A stretch of DNA of 64,000 bases from the NCBI GenBank assembly GCA_020353055.1, contig CP070686.1, forward strand, positions 2,475,244 through 2,539,243. Reading direction: 5' to 3'. Each line of letters starts with the position of its first letter. The first letter of the stretch is position 1. Shown piece by piece: positions 49,808 to 63,774 of this stretch. The position numbers were made by a program, and so were the translations under genes. A model generated the notes under the pieces. That model made no database searches, was not told the origin of the DNA, and saw only the letters and a program-made list of their open reading frames with translations. Origin of the DNA: Caldifarciminota bacterium (GTDB lineage: Bacteria > Hydrothermota > Tepidihabitantia > SM23-42).

Positions 49808-49835
49808 TTGACATCACATGTCAGTGTAATATAAT
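49808..49835 (+). promoter_or_regulatory. Promoter of the sigma-54 activator, with operator-like palindrome
   Basis: TTGACA (49808-49813), a 16-bp spacer and TATAAT (49830-49835). A perfect inverted repeat TGACAT-CAC-ATGTCA (49809-49823) covers the -35 box and could be an operator. A second inverted repeat, ACCGCG/CGCGGT (49750-49771), lies upstream. Confidence 0.75.
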
Positions 49836-49915: not shown

Positions 49916-51307
49916 GTGCATGAAACGAAGATATTGATCGCCGACGATGATGAGAATATTAGGAAATCACTGTCGGAACTGTTGAGGGGTGATGGATATC
50001 GTGTTCTTGCTGTGGGGGATGGTTATGCAGCAATTGACGCCGTCGTTCACGATCAGTGGGACCTCGTGATTCTGGATGTAAGGATGCCAAAGATCGACGG
50101 GCTAGAAGCACTGAGAAGAATAAAGGAATCTGATCCTGGACTGGATGTGATAATTATTACTGGATATTCCACCGTCGAAAATGCTGTTGCTGCTATGAAA
50201 ACGGGCGCTGCAGATTATGTTGTGAAGCCATTTACGCCCGATGAGATACGCATTCGTATATGTAACATCATTGAGAGGAGAATAATCAGAGCAGAGAACA
50301 TATATCTGCGGCGGGAATTGGAGGAGCGATGCAAATTCGACAATATCATCGGCATGAGCGATGCGATGCAAGAAATTTTCAGACTCATCGAAAAGGTTGC
50401 ACCGACCGATTCAACTATTCTAATTCGCGGTCAGAGCGGAACAGGGAAGGAATTAATCGCACGGGCTATTCATCAACATTCACGTAGAAAAGACGGGAAG
50501 TTCATTGCCGTAGATTGTGGTGCTCTACCAGAGACTCTTCTTGAGAGTGAGTTGTTCGGCCATGTGAAGGGTTCATTTACTGGTGCAATAGTCTCAAAGA
50601 GCGGCCTTCTGGAAGTCGCAAGTGGCGGAACATTCTTTTTGGATGAAGTTGGAGACTTGAGCCTTGGCATGCAATCCAAGCTGCTGCGGGTACTACAGGA
50701 AAAAGAATTCAGGCAAGTCGGTGGTGTAAAGAACATCAAGGTTGACGTTCGGTTGGTTGCGGCAACCAATCAGGATTTGGAACTGATGATCAAAAAAGGA
50801 CGGTTTCGGGAGGACCTATTCTACAGGATCAATATCGTCCCGATTCATCTCCCGCCATTAAGAGAACGGCAGGAAGATATACCCCTCTTGGTAGAACATT
50901 TTCTTAAGGTGTATAACGAAAGACGGAATAAACAAATAAAGAGTTTTACTCCTGAAGCGCTGGGGATGCTTGTAGATTTTCAATGGCCAGGGAATGTTCG
51001 TGAGTTGGAGAACATCATTGATCGTATGGTAATAATGAGTGATAGCGAAATTATCGACGTCGAACATGTACCAATATATATTGTCGGCAATAGGGTTTGT
51101 TTCAACATAACCGCTGCACGAACAGCCGCCGAGCTCAAGGAATTGAAAAAAAGAATAAGAGTGCAGGCAGTCGAGAACGTCGAAAAGGCATTTCTGATGG
51201 AAGCACTTAAACGAAATAAGTGGAATGTCAGCAAGGCTGCTCGTGATGTAGGCATGCAACGGCAGAATTTCCAGGCAATGATGAGAAAGTACGATATTCG
51301 TCCCTAG
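49916..51307 (+). CDS. Sigma-54-dependent response regulator (NtrC family)
   Basis: A 463-residue transcription activator. It contains a receiver domain (DDDEN acidic pocket, phospho-Asp in VILDVRMP, Lys in VVKPF), an AAA+ domain with GQSGTGKE (Walker A), the sigma-54-contact loop as GSFTGA in place of the usual GAFTGA, and a C-terminal Fis-type HTH (WNVSKAARDVGMQRQNFQAMM). The start is GTG 49916, preceded by AGAAGG; an in-frame ATG at 49859 lacks a ribosome-binding site. The sigma-54 promoter directly downstream at 51563 is its obvious target. The His-kinase partner is not clear because the neighbouring sensor is degenerate. Confidence 0.93.
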   Translation: MHETKILIADDDENIRKSLSELLRGDGYRVLAVGDGYAAIDAVVHDQWDLVILDVRMPKIDGLEALRRIKESDPGLDVIIITGYSTVENAVAAMKTGAADYVVKPFTPDEIRIRICNIIERRIIRAENIYLRRELEERCKFDNIIGMSDAMQEIFRLIEKVAPTDSTILIRGQSGTGKELIARAIHQHSRRKDGKFIAVDCGALPETLLESELFGHVKGSFTGAIVSKSGLLEVASGGTFFLDEVGDLSLGMQSKLLRVLQEKEFRQVGGVKNIKVDVRLVAATNQDLELMIKKGRFREDLFYRINIVPIHLPPLRERQEDIPLLVEHFLKVYNERRNKQIKSFTPEALGMLVDFQWPGNVRELENIIDRMVIMSDSEIIDVEHVPIYIVGNRVCFNITAARTAAELKELKKRIRVQAVENVEKAFLMEALKRNKWNVSKAARDVGMQRQNFQAMMRKYDIRP

Positions 51308-51363
51308 TCGCCAATGGCGAAGTAGAGTTTTCCCGCTATTCATAGCTGCATATTCATTTGATT

Positions 51364-51388
51364 CATGCATATTGTTTATATGCATGAC
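51364..51388. promoter_or_regulatory. Perfect 10-bp inverted repeat, candidate activator-binding site
   Basis: TCATGCATAT, a 5-base spacer and ATATGCATGA form a perfect inverted repeat centred about 190 bp upstream of the sigma-54 -24 element, the usual distance for an NtrC-type enhancer. Half-site-like TGCATAT copies occur near 51349 and 51431. The lack of a T tract speaks against a terminator. Confidence 0.6.
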
Positions 51389-51562
51389 AAACAAAATATT
51401 CTCATCAAATTACAGCACATTTCAGAACGGGTGCATATTTTCTTTGTGTTGGTTAAGATAAAACTTTGGTTGAGAAAAAACGCAAGAACAGGATGCTTAC
51501 AAAAGGAATGAAAAATCAATCTAAATTAATGACTTGAATGCCGTATCGCATTTGGTGAGTGG

Positions 51563-51579
51563 TTGGCACACGTTTTGCA
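51563..51579 (+). promoter_or_regulatory. Sigma-54 promoter (-24/-12)
   Basis: TTGGCACACGTTTTGCA matches the -24/-12 consensus TTGGCAC-N5-TTGCW. GG is at 51565-51566 and GC at 51577-51578, with exactly 10 bases between them. The predicted transcription start is about 51590. It reads into the degenerate sensor gene and on towards the Hdr cluster. Confidence 0.8.
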
Positions 51580-51592
51580 AGTAAAACGTAAT

Positions 51593-53368
51593 ATGCGACC
51601 AGGAGATGCGAGGTCATCACGCAAGCACGCTCATGTTGCCATCATGGATAGTGATCGAGAAACTGTTGAACAATTGCTGAAAGAGTTGAGAAAATTGGGT
51701 TACAAAGCAGAGGCAATTGAGCAGACCAAGACACTATTACGAAAGGTCAAAAATGATCTCATCGATGTCTTGATCCTCGCGGTTGATGCATGGGGGGGAG
51801 GACGTTTTGAGCTGATCCCGTTGATAAAGAGATTAAACAGATCGCTTCCTATTATAGCAACTTCAGGGGATGATTCGTTAGAGACGGCCGGTAAGGTAAG
51901 GGAACAAGGTGTCTTGTTCTATGCCATGAAACCACTGGATATGCGTGAGATTGACATAGTTTTGAAGAATGCTTTAGCACGAGGGCCAAAGTATCAAAGG
52001 CCGATTACGTTCGTAAAACCAACACGAGCAGAAAACGATCGTGAAAATGAGATTCTGGACATCAATGAGGCCAGCAGGACGCTAAAACTGAGCAAGAATA
52101 CTCTGGCAAGATTAGCTAAGCAAGGTGAGATACCAGCTTGCAGGATTGGGAATCGGTGGTGTTTTATCAGGAATCAGATCTACGAGTGGTTGAGGATCAG
52201 AGCAGCAGGGAACCAATGCAACTACAACACACTTATTCTGGAGACAATGGATGAAGGTGTGGCTGTTGTTGACAGGCGACTCAAAATCATAAGCTGCAAC
52301 AGTGCTTATCTTAAAGCGCTGGACATTCCACGTGACCGTGTTATTGGAGAACCATGCTATCGAGTTAGCCACCGTTCAGTAGCACCCTGCGATGAGCCAA
52401 TATGTCCTGTCCGGAAAGCCTTCAAAACACGGCAGGCCGTTAAAGTCTTACATGTCAACTACGATAATGAAGGTAAGGAGCGCTACTGTGATGTGGTTGC
52501 GCTGCCGATCAAGGATGCGCATGGTGATATCACTAGTGTACTTGAAATTATCAGAGATAACACAGAGATATATAATCTTAATAGACATCTCAATGGCGTA
52601 ATGCGATTTTTTGCACGCGAGTCAAAAGCGACACTGGGTACAGTTATGATGAATATCAGTGCGCTTGCTGATGAGAATTTGTCCGCAACAATTGATAAAT
52701 CAAAACGGAGTGAGATGCTCGTAAGCTCATTGTGCAGCCTTAAGCTTATGCACGATATGATAAGGAATTATATAGTATCCTATCAAGTGGAGAACGGAAG
52801 ACTGCAGTGTAACAAAAGCATCGTCCATATTGCTGATAACATAATTTATCCTGTTATATTCGAAACAGCTCCACTTCTTCGCAAGAAGGCAATTTCCATT
52901 GATACTTTCATCGGAAACTTGAAACCAACCTATTGTGACGTTGACCTGATGAAGGTTGCATTCACTGATATGATCAATAGCATGGCAAAATATGCAATGA
53001 ACGGATCTAAGATTCGGTGTTCGGTTGAAACGGATGGCGATTTCGTTATGGTGGTTTCAGGTGTTGGAGCCGGAGTCCCACATGAGAAATTCCAGAATCT
53101 TTCAGATGGCAGTTTGGATGTTGAACATCAGGAAATGAGCGATGCGGAGATGGGTCTGTACATCGCAAGAAGGATTGCCGAGATACATGATGGCGGGTTG
53201 AATATTGAAACAGGCTATATTGTAGGCGATCAGCATGTCTCTTATGATGAATTTCGGGCAACTCGACAATATAGCCATTTAGAAGTAGTTAGCAATACAG
53301 AATTTATCAGATTGCAGTTAAGAATCCCACATATTGATGTACATTGGGACGATGGAGGTGACAAGTGA
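51593..53368 (+). CDS. Degenerate sensor: receiver-like, excisionase-type HTH, PAS and pseudo-histidine-kinase
   Basis: A protein of about 591 residues. An upstream TTG at 51563 lies inside the sigma-54 promoter, so ATG 51593 is preferred; this puts the start within a few bases of the predicted transcript end, and ATG 51644 is an alternative. In order it has a receiver-like domain lacking the phospho-Asp (LILAVDAW), a MerR/excisionase-type HTH (LDINEASRTLKLSKNTLARLA), a PAS domain with a Cys/His motif (CYRVSHRSVAPCDEPICP), and a kinase-like region where the H-box reads FARESKATLG with no His. The ATPase G boxes are also eroded (SGVGAGVP). It probably senses redox state or binds metal without phosphorylating. 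Confidence 0.75.
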   Translation: MRPGDARSSRKHAHVAIMDSDRETVEQLLKELRKLGYKAEAIEQTKTLLRKVKNDLIDVLILAVDAWGGGRFELIPLIKRLNRSLPIIATSGDDSLETAGKVREQGVLFYAMKPLDMREIDIVLKNALARGPKYQRPITFVKPTRAENDRENEILDINEASRTLKLSKNTLARLAKQGEIPACRIGNRWCFIRNQIYEWLRIRAAGNQCNYNTLILETMDEGVAVVDRRLKIISCNSAYLKALDIPRDRVIGEPCYRVSHRSVAPCDEPICPVRKAFKTRQAVKVLHVNYDNEGKERYCDVVALPIKDAHGDITSVLEIIRDNTEIYNLNRHLNGVMRFFARESKATLGTVMMNISALADENLSATIDKSKRSEMLVSSLCSLKLMHDMIRNYIVSYQVENGRLQCNKSIVHIADNIIYPVIFETAPLLRKKAISIDTFIGNLKPTYCDVDLMKVAFTDMINSMAKYAMNGSKIRCSVETDGDFVMVVSGVGAGVPHEKFQNLSDGSLDVEHQEMSDAEMGLYIARRIAEIHDGGLNIETGYIVGDQHVSYDEFRATRQYSHLEVVSNTEFIRLQLRIPHIDVHWDDGGDK

Positions 53369-53757
53369 AGTCCATGAAAAAAATTCTGATAGTGGATGAT
53401 GACGTTGATTTCGTAGAAGCCACGAAAATCGTTTTGGAGGAAAGTGGCTACGATGTTGAGGCGTGTCTGTCTGCAGAAGCATGTCTTGAACAATTGAAGG
53501 CCAATGTGCCCGATTTGATTATATTGGACGTCATGATGGAAACCGATCACTCCGGATTTGATCTTTGCAGGGAAATCAAGCGAAATTTGAAGACCAAAGA
53601 GATTCCGATTCTTATGTTGACAGCTGTGGAGCAAAAATATCCCATGAATTTCAATAGAGCTGCCGGTGACGAAACATGGCTGCCAGTCGACGTCTATATT
53701 GACAAACCAGTTGAAGCCAGTGTGCTGCTGGAGCGCATCAATAAATTACTGAGGTGA
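53365..53757 (+). CDS. CheY-like single-domain response regulator
   Basis: A 130-residue receiver domain with all catalytic positions: acidic pocket VDDDVD, phospho-Asp in IILDVMM, Thr in LMLTAV and Lys in YIDKPVE. There is a short insertion after the Thr ([19 protein letters not shown]). There is no output domain. The start is GTG 53365 after GGAGG, overlapping the TGA of the degenerate sensor. It is followed 10 bp later by the Hdr-type cluster. Confidence 0.9.
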
Positions 53758-53767
53758 ATGTAACGTT

Positions 53768-54661
53768 ATGAAAGACAACGGCAAGACGGGTGCTACCCTT
53801 GTGGTAGGCGGGGGTATAGGGGGTATCCAGGCTGCACTGGATCTTGCGGATTCGGGGTTTCGAGTTTATTTACTAGAGAAAAACCCCAGCATTGGTGGGA
53901 TCATGGCTCAGTTAGACAAGACATTTCCCACTAATGATTGTTCAATGTGTATACTTGCACCAAAACTTGTTGGTGTTGCCAGGCATCCAAATATTACGAT
54001 TATTACAGATGGAGATATTGAGCAGTTGTCCGGTGACGCAGGTAATTTCGTTGTTACGATAAGAAAAGAACCACGCTATGTTGATGAAGAAAGATGTACG
54101 GGGTGTGGACTTTGCATGCAGAACTGTCCTGTACACCAAATTATGTATGATGAGTCTCCACCAGAAGAGTTACACCTTGAGTCTGCTGAAGTCGCGCAGA
54201 TCGAAACAATACTCCATGATTATCGAGATAAGAAAGGTGCTCTTATGCCCGTTTTGCAGGCAATCAATAATGCTTACAACTATTTCCCTGGGGAATTGCT
54301 AAGATATATGGCCCGTGAGTTAAAGATTCCTTTGAGTCTTATCTATAACGTTGCTACGTTCTATAAGGCATTCAGTCTGAAAAAACGAGGTAAGCACGTT
54401 ATCAGAGTATGCCAGGGAACAGCGTGCCATGTTCGAGGTGCAAAGCGCGTTTTGGAGGAATTCGAGCGCATTTTGGGTATTGAGGCCGGTAATAACACGG
54501 ACGACCTTCTATTCACTCTGGAAACTGTAAATTGTGTTGGTGCTTGTGCACTCGCACCAGTCATAATGATCGGCGGCGAGTATTTTGGCCAAATGACAAC
54601 GGGAAAAGTAGAGGCCGTAGTAGACAGATACTACAAAGAAGGAAATGACAATGCAGGATAA
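53768..54661 (+). CDS. HdrA N-terminal fragment fused to NuoE
   Basis: A 297-residue chimera. Residues 1 to about 125 match the N-terminus of HdrA: FAD Rossmann motif GGGIGG (14-19), [23 protein letters not shown], and one [4Fe-4S] motif from about 109 ([12 protein letters not shown]). Residues about 140-297 form a complete NuoE/HndA-type thioredoxin-like [2Fe-2S] subunit ([11 protein letters not shown] near 215, then [10 protein letters not shown]). The HdrA part stops exactly where the HdrA part of the 56513 gene begins. The stop overlaps the NuoF-like gene. It is probably a subunit of an NADH-linked flavin-based electron-bifurcating complex. Confidence 0.88.
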
Positions 54662-56516
54662 TATCGCTCACGATCACAGTACTGGAGGAGAGGCATCGTC
54701 GCAAGCAAGGCGTTACTGTATTAGTATTTGTGGCGGCACAGGCTGCCACGCATACAAGTGTGAAAAAGTGAGTGAGGCGTTCGTCGAGGAAATATGCAGG
54801 AGGCATGTAGAATCAGATATTGAAGTTAAGACTACGGGGTGTCACGGTTTTTGTGAGAGGGGTCCGATTGTCGTTATTTATCCTGACCACATTTTCTATC
54901 AGAGGGTAAAGCCCGAAGATGCGTCGGTTGTCATTGACAATCTTCTGAACGGGACGAAAGTCGTCGAGAATTTACTGTATGTTGATCCAAATACACAACA
55001 GAAGGTGATTAATATCGATGAGGTGTCATTCTACAAGAAACAGTGTCGATTAATTCTTGGTAATAACGGAAAGGTTGATCCGGAAAAAATCGATGATTAC
55101 CTTGCCCTTGATGGTTACAAAGCGCTTAGATTGGTGCTGTTCGGTAAGACACCCAAGGCTGTAGTTGATGAGATAAAGAGATCTGGTTTGCGCGGGCGTG
55201 GTGGTGCCGGCTTCTTGACCGGCCAGAAATGGGAGATATGCAGGCGTGCGGAGGGAGAAACAAAATATATTGTATGCAATGCAGACGAAGGGGATCCCGG
55301 TGCCTATATGGACCGAAGCGTTTTGGAAGGCAACCCTCACAGCGTATTGGAAGGTATGGCAATAGGTGCCTATGCAATCGGTGCCCACGAAGGGATTGTT
55401 TATGTGCGTACCGAATACCCGTTGGCGATAAAAAATCTGCGAACCGCGATTGAACAGGCGGAGCAGTTCAATTTCCTTGGTCAAGAAGTACTCGGCTCTG
55501 GATTTGATTTTTCAGTACGAATATGTCAAGGCGCTGGTGCGTTTGTCTGCGGTGAAGAAACAGCCCTGATAGCCTCTGTCGAAGGTGAACGTTCACCCGA
55601 ACCGAGGATCAGGCCGCCATATCCTGCGGAAAGCGGTCTTTGGCGTTGTCCAACGAATATCAACAATGTCGAGACATGGGCCAGCGTGCCGCTTATCATC
55701 AACAAAGGGGCAGATTGGTACGCCGCTATCGGAACTGAAAAGAGCAAAGGTACCAAGATATTTTCACTAGTAGGAAAGGTAAACAACACTGGCTTGGTCG
55801 AAGTTCCAATGGGCATTACATTGAGGGAGATCATTTATGAGATAGGTGGCGGAATTTCCAATCACAAGAAATTCAAAGCCGTGCAGACGGGTGGCCCCTC
55901 GGGTGGATGTGTACCGGCGAGTCTTCTTGACCTGCCCGTTGACTACGAAAGCCTGACTGAGGCGGGTTCGATGATGGGTTCGGGGGGGATGGTCGTGATG
56001 GACGAAGATACGTGCATGGTGGATGTAGCAAAATACTTCCTCAATTTTCTGAAGGACGAATCGTGTGGCAAATGCACTTCCTGCAGGGAAGGCATAGCAC
56101 AGATGTACGACACAGTACTTCGCATAACCCAGGGCAAGGGTCAAAATGAGGACATTGGATTGCTGGAGAATCTTGGTCAGGTGGTACAGGCCGCTTCGAT
56201 GTGCGGGTTCGGCCAGACGGCGGCGAATCCTGTGATTTCTACGATCAGGTATTTCAGAGACGAATACACCGCTCATATTGAAGAAAAATGCTGCCCGGCA
56301 CTGGTATGCAAGGATTTGATCTCGTATACAATCGAACCAGAAAAGTGTGGAGGCTGCACTGTATGCGCGAAGGCCTGTCCCTGCGGTGCCATAATGGGAG
56401 AGCCAAAGAAAGTACACGAAATAGATCAGAAAAAATGCATAAAGTGCGGCATTTGTCTTAGCAGTTGTCCACCAAAGTTCAGGGCAGTAAGCATTGTCTC
56501 GCCGGTGATATCATGA
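54651..56516 (+). CDS. nuoF: NADH-binding NuoF/HndC-like subunit
   Basis: A 621-residue protein. It has an N-terminal thioredoxin-like [2Fe-2S] domain ([11 protein letters not shown], then [12 protein letters not shown]), a NuoF core with [16 protein letters not shown] (FMN/NADH site) and [10 protein letters not shown] (N3-type cluster), and two C-terminal [4Fe-4S] motifs ([24 protein letters not shown]). This is the layout of HndC/HydB of NAD-linked iron hydrogenases. ATG 54651 has GAAGG at good spacing; ATG 54645 is possible. It lies between two halves of a split HdrA. Confidence 0.93.
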
Positions 56517-59500
56517 AAAACCGTGGGAGTACGAAGAAGGAAATGAAAAGCAGACCGCGAGCCACCAGGCAAAAAGAAGGTTCTACGTCCCTGACCATCG
56601 ACGGCATTCCGGTAAAGGTTGAACGTGGTACGACCATACTCCAAGCCGCAAGTACTGTCAATATCAAAATACCGACACTATGTTATAACGAAGCCCTGAG
56701 TCCCTATGGCGCCTGTCGTCTATGTGTTGTTGAAATTACGAAAAATGGGTGGCGCAAAATTCAGGCTTCCTGTATTTGCCGTGCCGAAGACGGTTATGAC
56801 GTGCAAACGTCGACGCCCGAGTTGGAAAATATTCGAAAGACGATGATTGAACTCATGATAGCTCGGGCCCCTGAATCCAAGGGAGTACTTGAAATGGCGG
56901 AGAGACTTGGTGTGAAGCGGACGCGATTCACACCAAGGAACGATGATTGCATACTCTGTGGGTTATGCGTAAGAATGTGCGCCGAGCGTATGGGACAGAG
57001 CGTGATCGGATTTGCCGGCCGTGGCGACGAAAGAAAGATCTCAACTCCTTTTGATATTCAATCGGAAAAATGCTTGGTGTGCGGTGCTTGTTTCTCAATA
57101 TGCCCTTGTGCTTCGGATAACCTTAGGAAATTGAGCAAAAAACCGCCGCGTCCCTTGAATGACGAATTCGACCAAGGACTAAGGCAAAGGTCGGTGATAC
57201 ATATACCTTTTCCACAAGCCGTCCCCAACGCGGCGATTATTGATAAAAGACATTGTGTACACTTCCTTGGTGATAGGTGCGGCATCTGTCAGGATTTGTG
57301 CGAGGCAAAAGCGATTGATTTCGACCAGAATGACAGGCTGATTGATGTCCGTGTGGGGTCGATCATTGTGTCAAGTGGTTCCGATGTCTACAAGGGGAAG
57401 ATGAGGCGTGAATTCGGTTATGGCAGATATGACAATGTAGTAACCTCTATCGAATTTGAAAGAATCCTATCGGCGTCAGGACCATTCTACGGTCATGTTC
57501 TAAGACCTGGGGACAGGACAGAACCCAGACGAATTGCATTTGTGCAGTGCGTAGGTTCTAGGGAAGAGGCGCATGATTACTGTTCGTCAGTGTGTTGCAT
57601 GTATGCTACAAAAGAAGCAATCATTGCCAAGGATCATGCGCCTCTCCTCGATTGCACGATATTCTGTATGGATATCAGGGCGTTCGGCAAAGGTTTTGAT
57701 GAATACTATGAGAAAGCAATGAAGAGTGGTATTCACTATATTCGCTGTCGCCCAGCATCAATCGACGAAGTGCCGGATACGAAGAATATAGTCATTAAAT
57801 ACTCTGATGAAAATGAGAGAGCAGTGCTTGAAGAGTATGATATGGTTGTGTTGTCATGTGGTTTGGAACCTTCACAGCATCTGGCGAATTTGGCAGGACG
57901 ACTTGGTCTTGATCTGAACAAGAGAGGTTTTCTCAGAACCACCGCGTTCAGTTCTATGGAATCGAGTAGAAACGGCATATTTGTTTGTGGCCCATGTACC
58001 GAGCCTAAAGACATACCCGAGACTGTTACTCAATCGTCGGCCGCTGCGGCAAAGGCAATGGAATTATTGAAGGACGTGCGCGGTACCCAGATAACGGCAA
58101 AGCAGTATCCGCCGGAATTGCCCGCGTATGATCAGGAACCAAGGATTGGAGTATTCGTCTGTCATTGTGGCATTAACATTGGGGGATATGTTGATGTGCC
58201 GCAGGTTGTGGAGTACACGAAGAATCTGCCTGGGGTAGTGTATGCTGAAAGTAACCTCTATACATGCTCGCAGGACAGCCAGAAGAGAATTGTTGAGCTA
58301 ATCGGGAAACATAAGTTGAATCGTGTGGTCGTTGCTTCCTGTACACCGCGAACCCACGAACCGCTGTTCCGGGAAACCGTACGGGAGGCAGGGTTGAATC
58401 CGTATCTTTTTGAGATGGCAAACATCCGTGACCAATGTTCGTGGATTCATATGAACGATCCGCTGGCCGCTACCCGGAAAGCCAGGGATCTCGTTAGGAT
58501 GGCAGTTGCCAAAGCGGGTGCGCTTGCAGCACTCAAGCGCGTTGAGATCAAGGTCAAACAGAAGGCCATGGTGATAGGCGGCGGAGTTGCCGGCATGGCT
58601 GCAAGCCTGTCTCTCGCAAGGCAAGGCTTCGAGGTCATCTTGGTGGAAAAAGAACATGAACTTGGTGGCAATACCAGGTATATCTATTATACGATTGATG
58701 AGAACGGTGTTCAGAATTTTCTTGAGAATATGGTGAGAGAAGTCTACGACAACAAATTGATCACTGTGTACACGAATGCAAATGTTGAAGGGGTGTCAGG
58801 TTTTGTTGGTAATTATGTCAGCGAAATCAGTATCGACACTAAGTCAAGAGTGAAATGCGAACATGGTGTAATTATCGTAGCAACGGGCGCACAGGAATTT
58901 GTGCCGGATGAGTATCTGTACGGTCAAGACGAAAGAGTCGTTACACAACGTGAATTGGAGCAAATGCTCGTCCAGCGTGATCCGACTGTATCAGGGGTTA
59001 AATCTGTTGTGATGATACAATGCGTTGGTTCAAGGGATGATGATCATGTCTATTGCAGTAGAAGGTGTTGTTCACAGGCCATTAAGAACTCACTTAGACT
59101 TCTCGAGATGAACCCGATGGTCAAGATCTATGTTCTTTATCGGGATATTCGGACCTATGGTTTCAAAGAGGAATTCTATACAGAAGCCCGCGAGAAAGGC
59201 GTTTTGTTCATACGCTACGATAGTTCGAATCGGCCTGCGGTTCACAGCGACAATGGTTCTCTGAGCGTAATGGCATTTGAGGCATTGATGCAAGAAAATA
59301 TTGAGATCAAACCCGATCTTCTCGTTCTTTCAGCGGGTATTGTGCCCAGTGTAGACAACAGGAGAATCGCCAAAATGCTTAAGGTACCATTGAACAGTGA
59401 CGGGTACTTCCTTGAAGCGCACGTTAAGTTGAGACCGGTAGATTTCGCAACGGAAGGCATTTTCGTTGCCGGGCTCGCTCATAGTCCTAAGTTCATAGAT

Positions 59501-59815
59501 GAGGCAATAGCGCAAGCCTTTGCTACTGCAGCACGTGCTGCAACGATACTTTCAAAAGACAAGTATTATGCCGAGGCAACGATTGCACATGTTAACGAAG
59601 AACTTTGCGTGGGTTGTGGTCTGTGCAGCAACCTGTGTCCGTACGAGGCAGTTGAGATACAAGTCAAGGAAGGCAAACGTGTCTCACAGGTCAACGAGGC
59701 ACTCTGCAAAGGGTGCGGTACCTGTGTCGCCGCCTGCGCCTCCGGTGCTATGGATCAATACGGATTTACCAAGAGACAAATATTGGGCATGATAGGTACA
59801 TTGCGGGAGTGGTAG
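56513..59815 (+). CDS. NuoG-like N-terminus fused to HdrA lacking its N-terminal part
   Basis: A 1100-residue chimera starting at ATG 56513, which overlaps the nuoF stop. Residues about 25-100 are a [2Fe-2S] ferredoxin domain (CYNEALSPYGACRLC ... C). Two [4Fe-4S] motifs follow (CILCGLCVRMC and CLVCGACFSICP, about 145-200); the His-ligated cluster typical of NuoG is not seen. From about 225 (HIPFPQAVPNAAIIDKRHC) it is HdrA, but without the first FAD-binding half, which is encoded in the 53768 gene. A second FAD motif (VIGGGVAGMAA) lies near 684, and two C-terminal ferredoxin motifs (CVGCGLCSNLCP, CKGCGTCVAAC) close the protein. Confidence 0.88.
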   Translation: MKNRGSTKKEMKSRPRATRQKEGSTSLTIDGIPVKVERGTTILQAASTVNIKIPTLCYNEALSPYGACRLCVVEITKNGWRKIQASCICRAEDGYDVQTSTPELENIRKTMIELMIARAPESKGVLEMAERLGVKRTRFTPRNDDCILCGLCVRMCAERMGQSVIGFAGRGDERKISTPFDIQSEKCLVCGACFSICPCASDNLRKLSKKPPRPLNDEFDQGLRQRSVIHIPFPQAVPNAAIIDKRHCVHFLGDRCGICQDLCEAKAIDFDQNDRLIDVRVGSIIVSSGSDVYKGKMRREFGYGRYDNVVTSIEFERILSASGPFYGHVLRPGDRTEPRRIAFVQCVGSREEAHDYCSSVCCMYATKEAIIAKDHAPLLDCTIFCMDIRAFGKGFDEYYEKAMKSGIHYIRCRPASIDEVPDTKNIVIKYSDENERAVLEEYDMVVLSCGLEPSQHLANLAGRLGLDLNKRGFLRTTAFSSMESSRNGIFVCGPCTEPKDIPETVTQSSAAAAKAMELLKDVRGTQITAKQYPPELPAYDQEPRIGVFVCHCGINIGGYVDVPQVVEYTKNLPGVVYAESNLYTCSQDSQKRIVELIGKHKLNRVVVASCTPRTHEPLFRETVREAGLNPYLFEMANIRDQCSWIHMNDPLAATRKARDLVRMAVAKAGALAALKRVEIKVKQKAMVIGGGVAGMAASLSLARQGFEVILVEKEHELGGNTRYIYYTIDENGVQNFLENMVREVYDNKLITVYTNANVEGVSGFVGNYVSEISIDTKSRVKCEHGVIIVATGAQEFVPDEYLYGQDERVVTQRELEQMLVQRDPTVSGVKSVVMIQCVGSRDDDHVYCSRRCCSQAIKNSLRLLEMNPMVKIYVLYRDIRTYGFKEEFYTEAREKGVLFIRYDSSNRPAVHSDNGSLSVMAFEALMQENIEIKPDLLVLSAGIVPSVDNRRIAKMLKVPLNSDGYFLEAHVKLRPVDFATEGIFVAGLAHSPKFIDEAIAQAFATAARAATILSKDKYYAEATIAHVNEELCVGCGLCSNLCPYEAVEIQVKEGKRVSQVNEALCKGCGTCVAACASGAMDQYGFTKRQILGMIGTLREW

Positions 59816-60231
59816 TGAAAGAATTTCAACCCAAAATAGTAGTATTTTGCTGCAACTGGTGTTCGTATGCCGGTGCAGATCTGGCGGGAGTGTCACGTTT
59901 GCAGATAGATCCCAACTTCCGAATAATAAGAACGATGTGTTCAGGGCGAATCGAACCAGAGTTTGTTTTGAGCGCATTTGAAAAAGGAGCGGATGGTGTT
60001 ATGATAACCGGTTGCCATCCCGGAGATTGTCACTACATCAGTGGTAACTACAAAACCCTCAGAAGGTATCATTTCATGAAAGTGCTTCTGGAAGAATTGG
60101 GCATCGATACAAGACGAATCGGCTTGAAATTCATCTCAGCAGGCGAGGGCATTGAGTTTCAGAATACGGTCAACAGTTTTGTCGAGCAAGTGAGGATATT
60201 GGGTCCGAGCAATGGCGCGTATAAGGAGTAG
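59815..60231 (+). CDS. mvhD: MvhD-like [2Fe-2S] electron-transfer subunit
   Basis: A 138-residue MvhD family protein, which in methanogens links hydrogenase or formate dehydrogenase to HdrA. Conserved cysteines appear in [25 protein letters not shown] and GCHPGDCHYISGN. The start is GTG 59815, preceded by GGGAG and overlapping the previous TAG. A second MvhD-like gene follows at 63775. Confidence 0.92.
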   Translation: MKEFQPKIVVFCCNWCSYAGADLAGVSRLQIDPNFRIIRTMCSGRIEPEFVLSAFEKGADGVMITGCHPGDCHYISGNYKTLRRYHFMKVLLEELGIDTRRIGLKFISAGEGIEFQNTVNSFVEQVRILGPSNGAYKE

Positions 60232-60235
60232 TAAA

Positions 60236-60664
60236 ATGAACGAGAATCAGGTTATAAATGTCAGTGAGTTGGATTCGAAATTCGCCGATGAAGTAATTTC
60301 GTATCCAGGCGGCGAACACTTGAGGAAGTGCTTTGCGTGCGGGACGTGCACAGCAGGATGTCCGGTCAGCGAGATAGATGAGAGTTACAGTCCAAGGCGT
60401 TTAATAAGACAGATTCTCTTCGGCATGCGTGTGGAAGTATTGACTTCCGCCGCAATCTGGTACTGTCTCGTATGTTATCGGTGCTTCGCGCATTGTCCTC
60501 AGAGCGTGAACTTTCCTGATTTGATGCGGGTCCTTCGCTACATTGCGATTCGAGAGAAATATGTGACGCCGGATATTGTGCAACGGATAAGCGAGATCGA
60601 CAAGCGCGTTCAGATATTACGACATGATCTAATAAAATACGATGTAACGAAACAGAAAGATTGA
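60236..60664 (+). CDS. hdrC: HdrC-like iron-sulfur subunit
   Basis: A 142-residue HdrC with two [4Fe-4S] motifs, CFACGTCTAGCP and CLVCYRCFAHCP. It normally connects HdrA to the CCG-domain subunit HdrB, but no HdrB gene is present up to the window end. ATG 60236 follows AAGGAG at 7-base spacing; an upstream ATG overlapping mvhD is less likely. Confidence 0.93.
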   Translation: MNENQVINVSELDSKFADEVISYPGGEHLRKCFACGTCTAGCPVSEIDESYSPRRLIRQILFGMRVEVLTSAAIWYCLVCYRCFAHCPQSVNFPDLMRVLRYIAIREKYVTPDIVQRISEIDKRVQILRHDLIKYDVTKQKD

Positions 60665-63600
60665 TTTTGGAACGTCTTGATATGGATGATCAGAATAGAA
60701 TCATGAGCAAGAACGATGTCCACAAGAAGGCAATGGTGATCGGTGGTGGGATTGCAGGTGTACAGGCAGCGCTGGATCTGGCAGATAGCGGAGTTGAAGT
60801 ATTTCTCGTGGAACGGGCGCCGAGTATCGGAGGCCGGATGGCTCAGCTCGATAAGACGTTTCCCACTAATGACTGTTCACTTTGCATTCTTTCGCCTAAA
60901 CTTGTGGAATCTGCAAATCATCCGAATATCAATATTATCACTAATGCGGAGATCGAAAAGGTCGAGGGTTTTGCACCGCGTTTTAAAGTAAGAGTCCGTA
61001 AAAAGCCGCGCTATGTTGATGAAGAGAAGTGTACTGGTTGTGGTATATGTATGACAAAATGCCCGGTCAAGATACCTGACGCTTTCAATGTGGGTTTGTG
61101 CGATACGAAGTGTATTCGAATTCCATTCCCGCAGGCGGTACCAGCAGTGGCAATTATCGATAGGGTACATTGCATATACTTCAAGCGAGGTAAGTGCCGT
61201 ACTTGTGAAAGGTTCTGCGAACCGCAGGCGATTGATTTCGACCAGAAAGAAGAATTCGTTGATATTGAAGTAGGCAGCATCATCGTTGCCGCCGGGCTAA
61301 CAGAATTCAGTGCAGTTTCAAAGGACGAATATGGATACAAGATCTTTCCGAACGTTGTTACCAGCATGGAGTTTGAGCGTATACTCAGTGCGTCTGGACC
61401 TACGCAGGGACATGTGCTCAGGCCATCGGATAAGAAGGAACCAAGGAAAATCGCTTTCATTCAGTGTGTCGGCTCGCGTGATTCGACAACAGGCAATGAA
61501 TATTGCTCGGCAATATGTTGCATGCAAGCGGCCAAGGACGCAATAATAATAACCGAGCATCTGCAGAATGTAGAGATATGCGTTTTTGGTATGGACGTTA
61601 GAGCGCATGGCAAGAATTTCGACAAATTCATTGAGCGCGCCCAAACTGAACACCGAACTAAATTTGTCAGGGCTCGTGTTGCGTCGGTCGATGTCAACCC
61701 AGCGAATGATGATCTTATTCTGCATTACGATTCTGACGGGCATACAAGAAGGGAAGATTTCGAACTGCTGATACTCTCCGTTGGCCTCAAGGCTTCACCC
61801 TTTTTGAGGCGGCTTGCTGCTCTGCTTGATGTCCGTTTAGACGACCTCGGGTTCGTCCACACCACGACATTCACGCCGGTCGCGACGTCGAGGCCTGGCA
61901 TATTTGTTTGTGGTAGTATTTCAGGACCCAAAGATATACCGGAATCTGTTATCGAGGCGAGTGGCGCAGCATCATCGGCGGGTGCGGTGCTGAAGAGTTT
62001 TCCACGGAGGGCCATCGTTGTCGATTATCCGCCCGAAGTACCGGTTGATGACGGGGATCGGCCCAGGATTGGTGTTTTTGTTTGTCACTGTGGAATTAAT
62101 ATTGCAGGGTGTGTCGATGTGGCAAAAGTTGTCGAGCACGCAGCCAGCCAGCCTTATGTTGTCTACAGTCAGGAGTTTATGTTCGCTTGCTCCCAGGATT
62201 CGCAGAAGTTGATAGATGATAAGATCAGGGAGATGGGGATCAATCGTGTTGTGGTTGCGGCATGCACGCCCCGGACGCACGAACCACTTTTTCAAAATAC
62301 ACTTAGGAATTCCGGATTGAATCCATATCTGTTCGAATTCGCCAACATTCGCGAGCAGTGTTCTTGGGTTCACCAGAAGGAACCTGATAAAGCAACGGAA
62401 AAAGCCAAGGAACTTGTAGAAATGTCAATCCGTAAAGCTGCATACCTTGAGTCGTTGTTCAAGACGAAATTGAGTGTTAACAAGAACGTCCTCGTCATTG
62501 GCGGAGGGTTGGCAGGCATGAGCGCGGCTTTGGATCTGGCGCAGCAGGATTTTCATGTTGATATTGTTGAGAAGAACGATCACCTAGGCGGTAACCTCCT
62601 GCGCCTTAATTATACCCTAGATGGCTACGAGACGAAGACCTTTCGTGAGCATCTAATAGACCAAGTTCAAACACATCCTCTGATAAAGGTGCACAGGAAT
62701 GCGGAAATCGATTCAATAACCGGTTTCATTGGAAACTATAGAACTGTTGTCAGATATACTAATGGTAGGAATATTGAATTTAACAGAGCTGACATGCACG
62801 ACGAGCGCGTCGAGATCGATCATGGTGTGGTAATAATTGCATCCGGCGCGAAAGAATACGAACCGAATGAATACCTCTACGGCAAGAATCAAAATGTGAT
62901 ATCGCAGCGTGAGTTAGAGGTTAGAATAGCGGAAAGTGATTCTTCTTTGCAGGGCATTGATTCGGTTATCATGATTCAATGTGTTGGTTCGCGCAATGAC
63001 AAAAATCCCTATTGCAGCAGGGTTTGTTGCAGTACGGCAATAAAGAATGGAATAAGATTAAAGCAATTGAACCCATTCGTGCATATATATGTTTTGTACA
63101 GGGACGTGAGGACATATGGATTGAAAGAGATGTACTACAAAAAAGCTCGTGAGGCAGGGATTATTTTCATACAGTATGATGAAGAATCAGAACCAGTAGT
63201 GGAAGAGTTCAATTCGCATCTTACCGTGCGTGTTAAAGAGAAGATAATCGGCAAGATACTCAGATTCAGTCCCGATTTCGTTGTTTTGAGTAACGGGATA
63301 GTACCGAGTGAAGATAACAAATCGTTGTCACAAGCACTGAAGGTTCCATTGGGAGCCGATGGTTTCTTTCTTGAAGCACATGTGAAACTAAGGCCGGTTG
63401 ACTTCGCTACGGATGGTGTTTTTGTCTGCGGGCTTGCCCATTATCCAAAAGATATCAGTGAGACGATTGCGCAGGCAAAGGCAGCAGCATCGAGGGCAAT
63501 AACCGTGTTGAGTAGAGAGGAGATCGAATCAGAGGCAAAAGTGGCATACATTCACGAGAATCGGTGTAATGGTTGCGGTCTATGCGTTGATATTTGCGCT

Positions 63601-63774
63601 TATAAGGCACTGGAGATTGATCCCCAGAGAAAAGTCGTGACGCTAAATTCGGCATTATGTAAGGGGTGTGGTACCTGTGCTGCTTCCTGTCGATCGTGTG
63701 CGATCGATATCAGAGGTTTTAGGGATGAACAAGTCCTGGCGGCACTGGATGTGCTGCGTTGGGATAGGAAATAA
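60661..63774 (+). CDS. hdrA: HdrA, long form with two FAD-binding regions
   Basis: A protein of up to 1037 residues, much longer than the roughly 650-residue methanogen HdrA. The first Rossmann motif ([19 protein letters not shown]) lies near residue 22, PTNDCSLCILSPKLV follows, and then a ferredoxin motif (CTGCGICMTKCP) that runs straight into IRIPFPQAVPAVAIIDRVHC. A second Rossmann motif (VIGGGLAGMSAALDLAQ) lies near 610, and two C-terminal [4Fe-4S] motifs end the protein (CNGCGLCVDIC, CKGCGTCAASC). The start is TTG 60661, overlapping the HdrC stop, or ATG 60682. Side by side with the 53768 and 56513 products, it shows how they derive from one HdrA. Confidence 0.93.
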   Translation: MILERLDMDDQNRIMSKNDVHKKAMVIGGGIAGVQAALDLADSGVEVFLVERAPSIGGRMAQLDKTFPTNDCSLCILSPKLVESANHPNINIITNAEIEKVEGFAPRFKVRVRKKPRYVDEEKCTGCGICMTKCPVKIPDAFNVGLCDTKCIRIPFPQAVPAVAIIDRVHCIYFKRGKCRTCERFCEPQAIDFDQKEEFVDIEVGSIIVAAGLTEFSAVSKDEYGYKIFPNVVTSMEFERILSASGPTQGHVLRPSDKKEPRKIAFIQCVGSRDSTTGNEYCSAICCMQAAKDAIIITEHLQNVEICVFGMDVRAHGKNFDKFIERAQTEHRTKFVRARVASVDVNPANDDLILHYDSDGHTRREDFELLILSVGLKASPFLRRLAALLDVRLDDLGFVHTTTFTPVATSRPGIFVCGSISGPKDIPESVIEASGAASSAGAVLKSFPRRAIVVDYPPEVPVDDGDRPRIGVFVCHCGINIAGCVDVAKVVEHAASQPYVVYSQEFMFACSQDSQKLIDDKIREMGINRVVVAACTPRTHEPLFQNTLRNSGLNPYLFEFANIREQCSWVHQKEPDKATEKAKELVEMSIRKAAYLESLFKTKLSVNKNVLVIGGGLAGMSAALDLAQQDFHVDIVEKNDHLGGNLLRLNYTLDGYETKTFREHLIDQVQTHPLIKVHRNAEIDSITGFIGNYRTVVRYTNGRNIEFNRADMHDERVEIDHGVVIIASGAKEYEPNEYLYGKNQNVISQRELEVRIAESDSSLQGIDSVIMIQCVGSRNDKNPYCSRVCCSTAIKNGIRLKQLNPFVHIYVLYRDVRTYGLKEMYYKKAREAGIIFIQYDEESEPVVEEFNSHLTVRVKEKIIGKILRFSPDFVVLSNGIVPSEDNKSLSQALKVPLGADGFFLEAHVKLRPVDFATDGVFVCGLAHYPKDISETIAQAKAAASRAITVLSREEIESEAKVAYIHENRCNGCGLCVDICAYKALEIDPQRKVVTLNSALCKGCGTCAASCRSCAIDIRGFRDEQVLAALDVLRWDRK

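Follow-up and report, generated by a model that had tools for sequence, protein, structure and literature searches.

A conserved enhancer and a sigma-54 promoter very probably switch on a 15-kb Hdr electron-transfer operon in uncultured WOR-3 bacteria. The locus was examined in a window of 64,000 nucleotides (the whole stretch of DNA analyzed) and by comparison with relatives: orthologous sensors are present in nine of 27 genomes of the order, namely the window's own and those designated G003, G005, G009, G010, G011, G013, G018, and G021, all WOR-3 (Stahlbacteria). The order activator, sensor, CheY, HdrA/NuoE is the same in all nine, with the caveats that the G011 contig stops within the HdrA/NuoE gene and that G005 matches the HdrA part only. 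The regulatory part of the window contains the following features:

49808–49835, forward strand: predicted sigma-70 promoter of the activator gene, TTGACA-N16-TATAAT, matching the consensus at 12 of 12 positions.
49916–51307, forward strand: sigma-54-dependent response regulator (the activator), with a GTG start and AGAAGG upstream; receiver (REC), AAA+, and Fis-type helix-turn-helix (HTH) domains by Pfam.
51347–51365, forward strand: putative imperfect enhancer dyad TGCATATTCATTTGATTCA, overlapping the distal dyad; 10 of 12 positions match, with its center 209 bp from the -24 GG.
51363–51387, forward strand: putative distal enhancer dyad TCATGCATAT-tgttt-ATATGCATGA, with perfect 10-bp arms, an N5 spacer, and a conserved position.
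51432–51450, forward strand: putative proximal, degenerate enhancer site TGCATATTTTCTTTGTGTT; 9 of 12 positions match, 124 bp from the -24 GG.
51563–51579, forward strand: predicted sigma-54 promoter, -24/-12 element TTGGCACACGTTTTGCA, matching the consensus at 13 of 13 positions and conserved in nine genomes.

An initial annotation, made from the window alone, had described the promoter, the distal palindrome, and the activator, but overlooked the activator's sigma-70 promoter, the proximal enhancer site, the sensor's loss of kinase motifs, and the fact that the operon runs on past the window's end. Its designation of the gene upstream of the palindrome as a sigma-54 activator is borne out by Pfam matches to REC, Sigma54_activat (E 8e-72), and Fis HTH domains, and the protein has Walker A (GQSGTGKE) and loop (GSFTGA) motifs. 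Orthologues in the eight other genomes are 60–88% identical; the Walker A motif and the phosphoacceptor Asp are invariant among them, and the loop reads GSFTGA in all nine but G011, where it is GSFTDA. The start codon was picked from the sequence and an alignment with G003, which has the same sigma-70 element 5′ of its activator gene. With a promoter of this type, expression is probably constitutive for the activator and conditional for its target operon.

In TTGGCACACGTTTTGCA, the GG (51565–51566) and GC (51577–51578) are separated by 10 bases, the exact spacing the initial annotation had given. Scored on the 13 defined positions of YTGGCACRN4TTGCW, it matches at all of them, with the runner-up in the window at 11, and the exact sequence TGGCACN5TTGCW occurs once in the 64 kb. 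Genome-wide (2.69 Mb, one contig), there are five exact YTGGCACN5TTGCW sites, against about 1.3 expected by chance by our own arithmetic, and four of these, TTGGCACACGTTTTGCA among them, are non-coding and directly 5′ of an ORF. If one mismatch is allowed, however, the count is near background, with 51 sites in the genome versus 47 for a reversed control. The consensus match by itself, near chance genome-wide, is therefore only weak evidence, and comparative support is needed for the site.

The genome does encode a complete RpoN, the presence of which the initial annotation had proposed as a check: 460 amino acids, with the RpoN box SRRTVSKYR and a match to PF04552 (E 1.9e-45). It also encodes seven strong sigma-54 activators. 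Since the exact -24/-12 sites are mostly non-coding and 5′ of ORFs, and some follow activator genes, sigma-54 appears to be in use in this organism. Further probable sigma-54 promoters in the same genome (L002, L003, L005, L021, and L024) precede genes for glutamate dehydrogenase and for outer-membrane-like, HD-domain, lipoprotein-like, and pilin-like proteins; those of the glutamate dehydrogenase and pilin-like genes each come after an activator gene, the latter as a one-mismatch site between the 3′ end of the activator gene and the pilin-like gene. Transcription from sigma-54 promoters is RpoN-dependent and starts about 12 nt after the -12 GC; for TTGGCACACGTTTTGCA the start is predicted near 51590.

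Comparison supplies much stronger grounds. A -24/-12 element scoring 11–13 of 13 is found within the last 110 bp 5′ of the sensor gene in all nine genomes, with GG and TGC invariant; scores as high within 110 bp arise in dinucleotide shuffles at a frequency of 0 to 0.0055 per locus. The palindrome is conserved as well. It is, as the initial annotation had it, a perfect 10-bp inverted repeat with a 5-base spacer some 190 bp upstream (center to -24 GG), although it starts one base earlier, at 51363. Its core, TGCATA-N7-TATGCA, is found as a pair of sites in all nine genomes, the window included, with the proximal center 114–129 bp and the distal center 182–197 bp from the -24 GG and a spacing of 66–69 bp. 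Agreement is 10–12 of 12 positions at most sites and lowest, 9 of 12, at the proximal sites of the window and G003 and the distal sites of G005 and G013. The degenerate site TGCATATTTTCTTTGTGTT is thus located where seven other genomes carry good sites (10–12 of 12). Several genomes have a double distal site, with overlapping dyads 19 bp apart: in the window, at 51347–51365 and 51363–51387, with TGCATATTCATTTGATTCA also present in G003 and comparable double sites in G018 and G021. G013 has an extra perfect dyad at 201 bp from the -24 GG.

Paired dyads arise in shuffles of the nine loci at a frequency of 0 to 0.0005, a value that is partly circular for the window itself, since the dyad consensus was derived from the window and then refined after viewing the relatives. 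Promoter and dyads together are more than chance at the nine loci, and far above shuffles. A genome-wide scan for the inverted repeat, also proposed in the initial annotation, finds no second copy of TCATGCATAT-N5-ATATGCATGA in the window's own genome at three or fewer mismatches. Among the nine whole genomes eight of 12 perfect dyads are at this locus, with three occurrences of a reversed control pattern. At two mismatches a genome-wide scan for the dyad is uninformative (at least 131 matches versus at least 92 for the control). Because perfect dyads are concentrated here, the enhancer appears to serve one local target, and the dyad pair is probably a conserved enhancer with a single target.

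The promoter could conceivably be real and the palindrome bound by some other regulator, either another of the seven strong sigma-54 activators or the sensor itself, which in seven of nine genomes contains an HTH_17 region. This is improbable: the activator gene and the dyads occur together in nine of nine genomes, and the G018 and G021 sensors are without the HTH and PAS part, yet the dyads are kept. Somewhat less probable again is that the -24/-12 sequence and the palindrome both match by chance and that the sensor and Hdr genes are transcribed from elsewhere, such as by read-through from the sigma-70 promoter of the activator. That promoter is a strong one, a search between the activator and sensor genes found no terminator, and the genome-wide counts given above are close to expectation; against this, all nine genomes keep both elements, in place as well as in sequence and far above shuffles, and the perfect dyads cluster at this one locus. 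The idea that the palindrome, which lies 56 bp past the activator stop codon, is that gene's terminator was rejected as scarcely credible: it is A+T-rich, has no T run after it, and is not called as a terminator; moreover, in each of the nine genomes the intergenic region contains its core twice, at a nearly constant distance from the promoter. Activator-driven transcription of the sensor and Hdr genes from TTGGCACACGTTTTGCA is thus the preferred reading, and the suggestion in the initial annotation that the Hdr complex may be under sigma-54 control is supported by rpoN and by the nine-genome conservation of promoter, enhancer, and gene order. The predicted target genes within the window are:

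51593–53368, forward strand: sensor, with a degenerate REC domain, HTH_17, PAS, and a kinase core lacking His, N-box, G1, and G2 (from Pfam, alignment, and dN/dS).
53365–53757, forward strand: CheY-like stand-alone receiver (PF00072), syntenic in nine genomes.
53768–54661, forward strand: N-terminal part of HdrA fused to a NuoE-like domain (from Pfam and synteny).
54645–56516, forward strand: NuoF-like subunit (PF01512, PF10589).
56510–59815, forward strand: HdrA with an N-terminal 2Fe-2S domain (Pfam), start uncertain (first in-frame start 56465).
59713–60231, forward strand: MvhD/FlpD subunit (PF02662), start uncertain and probably later.
60212–60664, forward strand: HdrC-like subunit (Fer4_8; the best NCBIfam matches, HdrC and QmoC, are below cut-off).
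60661–63774, forward strand: second HdrA.

As described initially, the sensor, CheY-like, and split Hdr genes are co-directional, with overlaps or gaps of about 10 bp. The operon continues past the window to about 67107, with genes for MvhD, two Fe-S proteins, and an FAD/NAD subunit; its last two products resemble AsrA/AsrB and sulfhydrogenase subunits. It resembles Hdr-Flox, an operon type with HdrA, HdrB, and HdrC plus MvhD and FAD/NAD and Fe-S Flox subunits, and is at most a candidate member: HdrA, HdrC, MvhD, and FAD/NAD and Fer4_22 proteins are present, the NCBIfam hits fall short of the cut-offs, and a search of the products identified no HdrB. Several HdrA-like proteins of the order (G000:C1:1083535–1083879 and many relatives) have reading frames that extend across a single in-frame TGA, possibly a selenocysteine codon.

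The sensor reading frame could be extended upstream to a TTG at 51563, which the initial annotation took to be promoter DNA rather than a start. The orthologues agree: in G010 and G009 a stop closes the sensor frame until past the -24/-12 element, and in G005 the first start codon comes only after the predicted transcription start. TTG 51563 is thus very unlikely as a start, and ATG 51593 is the predicted one. This ATG is about 3 nt past the predicted transcription start (51590), and a usable sensor ATG is found 3–7 nt past the corresponding predicted start in seven of nine genomes; in the other two it is 15–19 nt past, with GGAG-type ribosome sites. At such a short distance the sigma-54 transcript is probably almost leaderless. 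The next in-frame ATG is residue 18, and its use would cut into strand 1 of the receiver (predicted residues 14–18). The AlphaFold model of the sensor is moderate (mean pLDDT 65.8) and was used only for this strand and for the ATPase fold.

Tested as a histidine kinase in an alignment of the nine orthologues, the window's sensor lacks the phosphoacceptor His and the N, G1, and G2 boxes. At these kinase motifs it has FARE, SMAKYA, SGVG, and DAEMGL, and G003 has FARE, GVAKYA, SGVG, and DADMGL; PF02518 is still matched in the window. The loss is restricted to these two: the other seven keep the H-box His, an N-box (N.A.KYG), and GTGLGL, with NEG in place of the usual DxG of G1 in all of them. The phosphoacceptor position of the sensor's own receiver is Ala in the window, G003, G005, G010, and G011. 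Nevertheless, comparison between the window's own genome and G003 gives a low sensor dN/dS (0.15 overall; 0.035 for the PAS, 0.14 for the dimerization, and 0.32 for the ATPase part; 0.10 for the activator) and zero indels across 591 codons, which fits a maintained pseudokinase better than a decaying gene. Constraint is relaxed in the ATPase part, most of which, the lid excepted, is predicted to fold. The window's sensor is, then, a probable pseudokinase under purifying selection.

A degenerate sensor kinase makes the usual phosphorelay doubtful, but the activator keeps the Asp, Thr, and Lys of its receiver and may therefore be phosphorylated by another kinase; the genome has 18 HATPase_c matches. 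A more specific proposal, to which we give about an even chance, is that the operon-encoded sensor of this clade is a selected pseudokinase acting as a non-catalytic PAS sensor within an otherwise intact circuit and enhancer, tuning the activator or another kinase by binding, its level tracking operon output through the near-leaderless transcript. A related kinase core is encoded in G051 (L082:9078–11198, reverse strand), fused to FrhB/FdhB and ferredoxin domains and located beside CheY and HdrA/NuoE genes, an arrangement that hints at direct redox sensing.

From the elements, their conservation, the protein domains, and rpoN, all observed, we infer the binding, the transcription start, the reliance of the Hdr genes on this promoter, and the signal, as follows. 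The activator gene would be expressed from its housekeeping sigma-70 promoter, and the activated protein would bind the TGCATA-N7-TATGCA dyads about 190 and 124 bp 5′ of the -24 GG. By DNA looping it would meet RNA polymerase-sigma54 parked on TTGGCAC-N5-TTGCA, and its ATPase would open the promoter. The transcript, from near 51590, would cover the sensor, CheY, HdrA/NuoE, NuoF, HdrA, MvhD, HdrC, HdrA, MvhD, and Flox-like genes, and the sensor, being itself encoded in the operon, would rise and fall with operon output. In the window species and G003, whose sensors have probably lost the kinase chemistry, the activator would probably be phosphorylated by another kinase or controlled via protein binding.

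The closest known system is that of DVU2394 in Desulfovibrio vulgaris Hildenborough, which targets the operon DVU2405-2397, encoding alcohol dehydrogenase and heterodisulfide reductase (PMC3333781, PMC4641369). Both regulators are sigma-54 two-component response regulators with a GSFTGA loop, controlling (here by prediction) an operon with heterodisulfide reductase genes. The DVU2394 motif, however, is a direct repeat (PMC3333781), whereas WOR-3 has inverted repeats in pairs; the WOR-3 operon has no identified alcohol dehydrogenase gene; and in WOR-3 the sensor and CheY genes are the first of the target operon. The WOR-3 case thus appears to be of the same kind, in another phylum and with an enhancer sequence of its own. 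Here the predicted elements are conserved across the lineage, and in the window's species the sensor is, by alignment, without catalytic residues. With NtrC-type systems the locus shares a -24/-12 promoter, paired dyads 100–220 bp upstream, and a response regulator that carries AAA+ and Fis HTH domains. What sets it apart from such systems in general is that the transcript is predicted to be near-leaderless in seven of the nine genomes and that the sensor kinase, degenerate in two of nine, is encoded inside the target operon. A literature search on the Geobacter BamVW system found no closer parallel.

For the sensor, DivL of Caulobacter, a repurposed kinase (PMC4211667, PMC5361649), and ChrS of Corynebacterium, which has a pseudokinase form (PMC9491836), are comparable histidine pseudokinases, in that a kinase fold is kept and catalytic function lost or repurposed (in the present case by prediction). 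The difference is that here two sister species have changes in all of His, N-box, G1, and G2, whereas His, N-box, and G2 are retained by the orthologues from other genera. With motif loss among such close relatives, predicted active and inactive versions of the sensor can be compared naturally within the same circuit. Hdr genes are reported in a 2025 survey of WOR-3, in which a text search for sigma factors or two-component systems turned up neither (PMC12542636). For this uncultured phylum the present analysis predicts an activator together with its binding site, promoter, and target operon, and it suggests that Desulfovibrio is not alone in placing Hdr-type electron transfer under sigma-54/two-component control.

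Promoters are mixed at another Hdr locus, a paralogous one found in relatives. In G025 and G009 an activator gene and a -24/-12 element (13/13 and 10/13, respectively) precede the kinase region, and G024 has a 12/13 site (the sigma-54-type loci being L204, L208, and L125); in G005, G003, and G018 there is, by eye, a sigma-70-like promoter instead (contrasting loci L206, L207, and L126). Sigma-54 control thus seems recurrent, but not universal, for the Hdr loci of this group. At the G025 locus, a short Cys-rich ORF follows the -24/-12 element.
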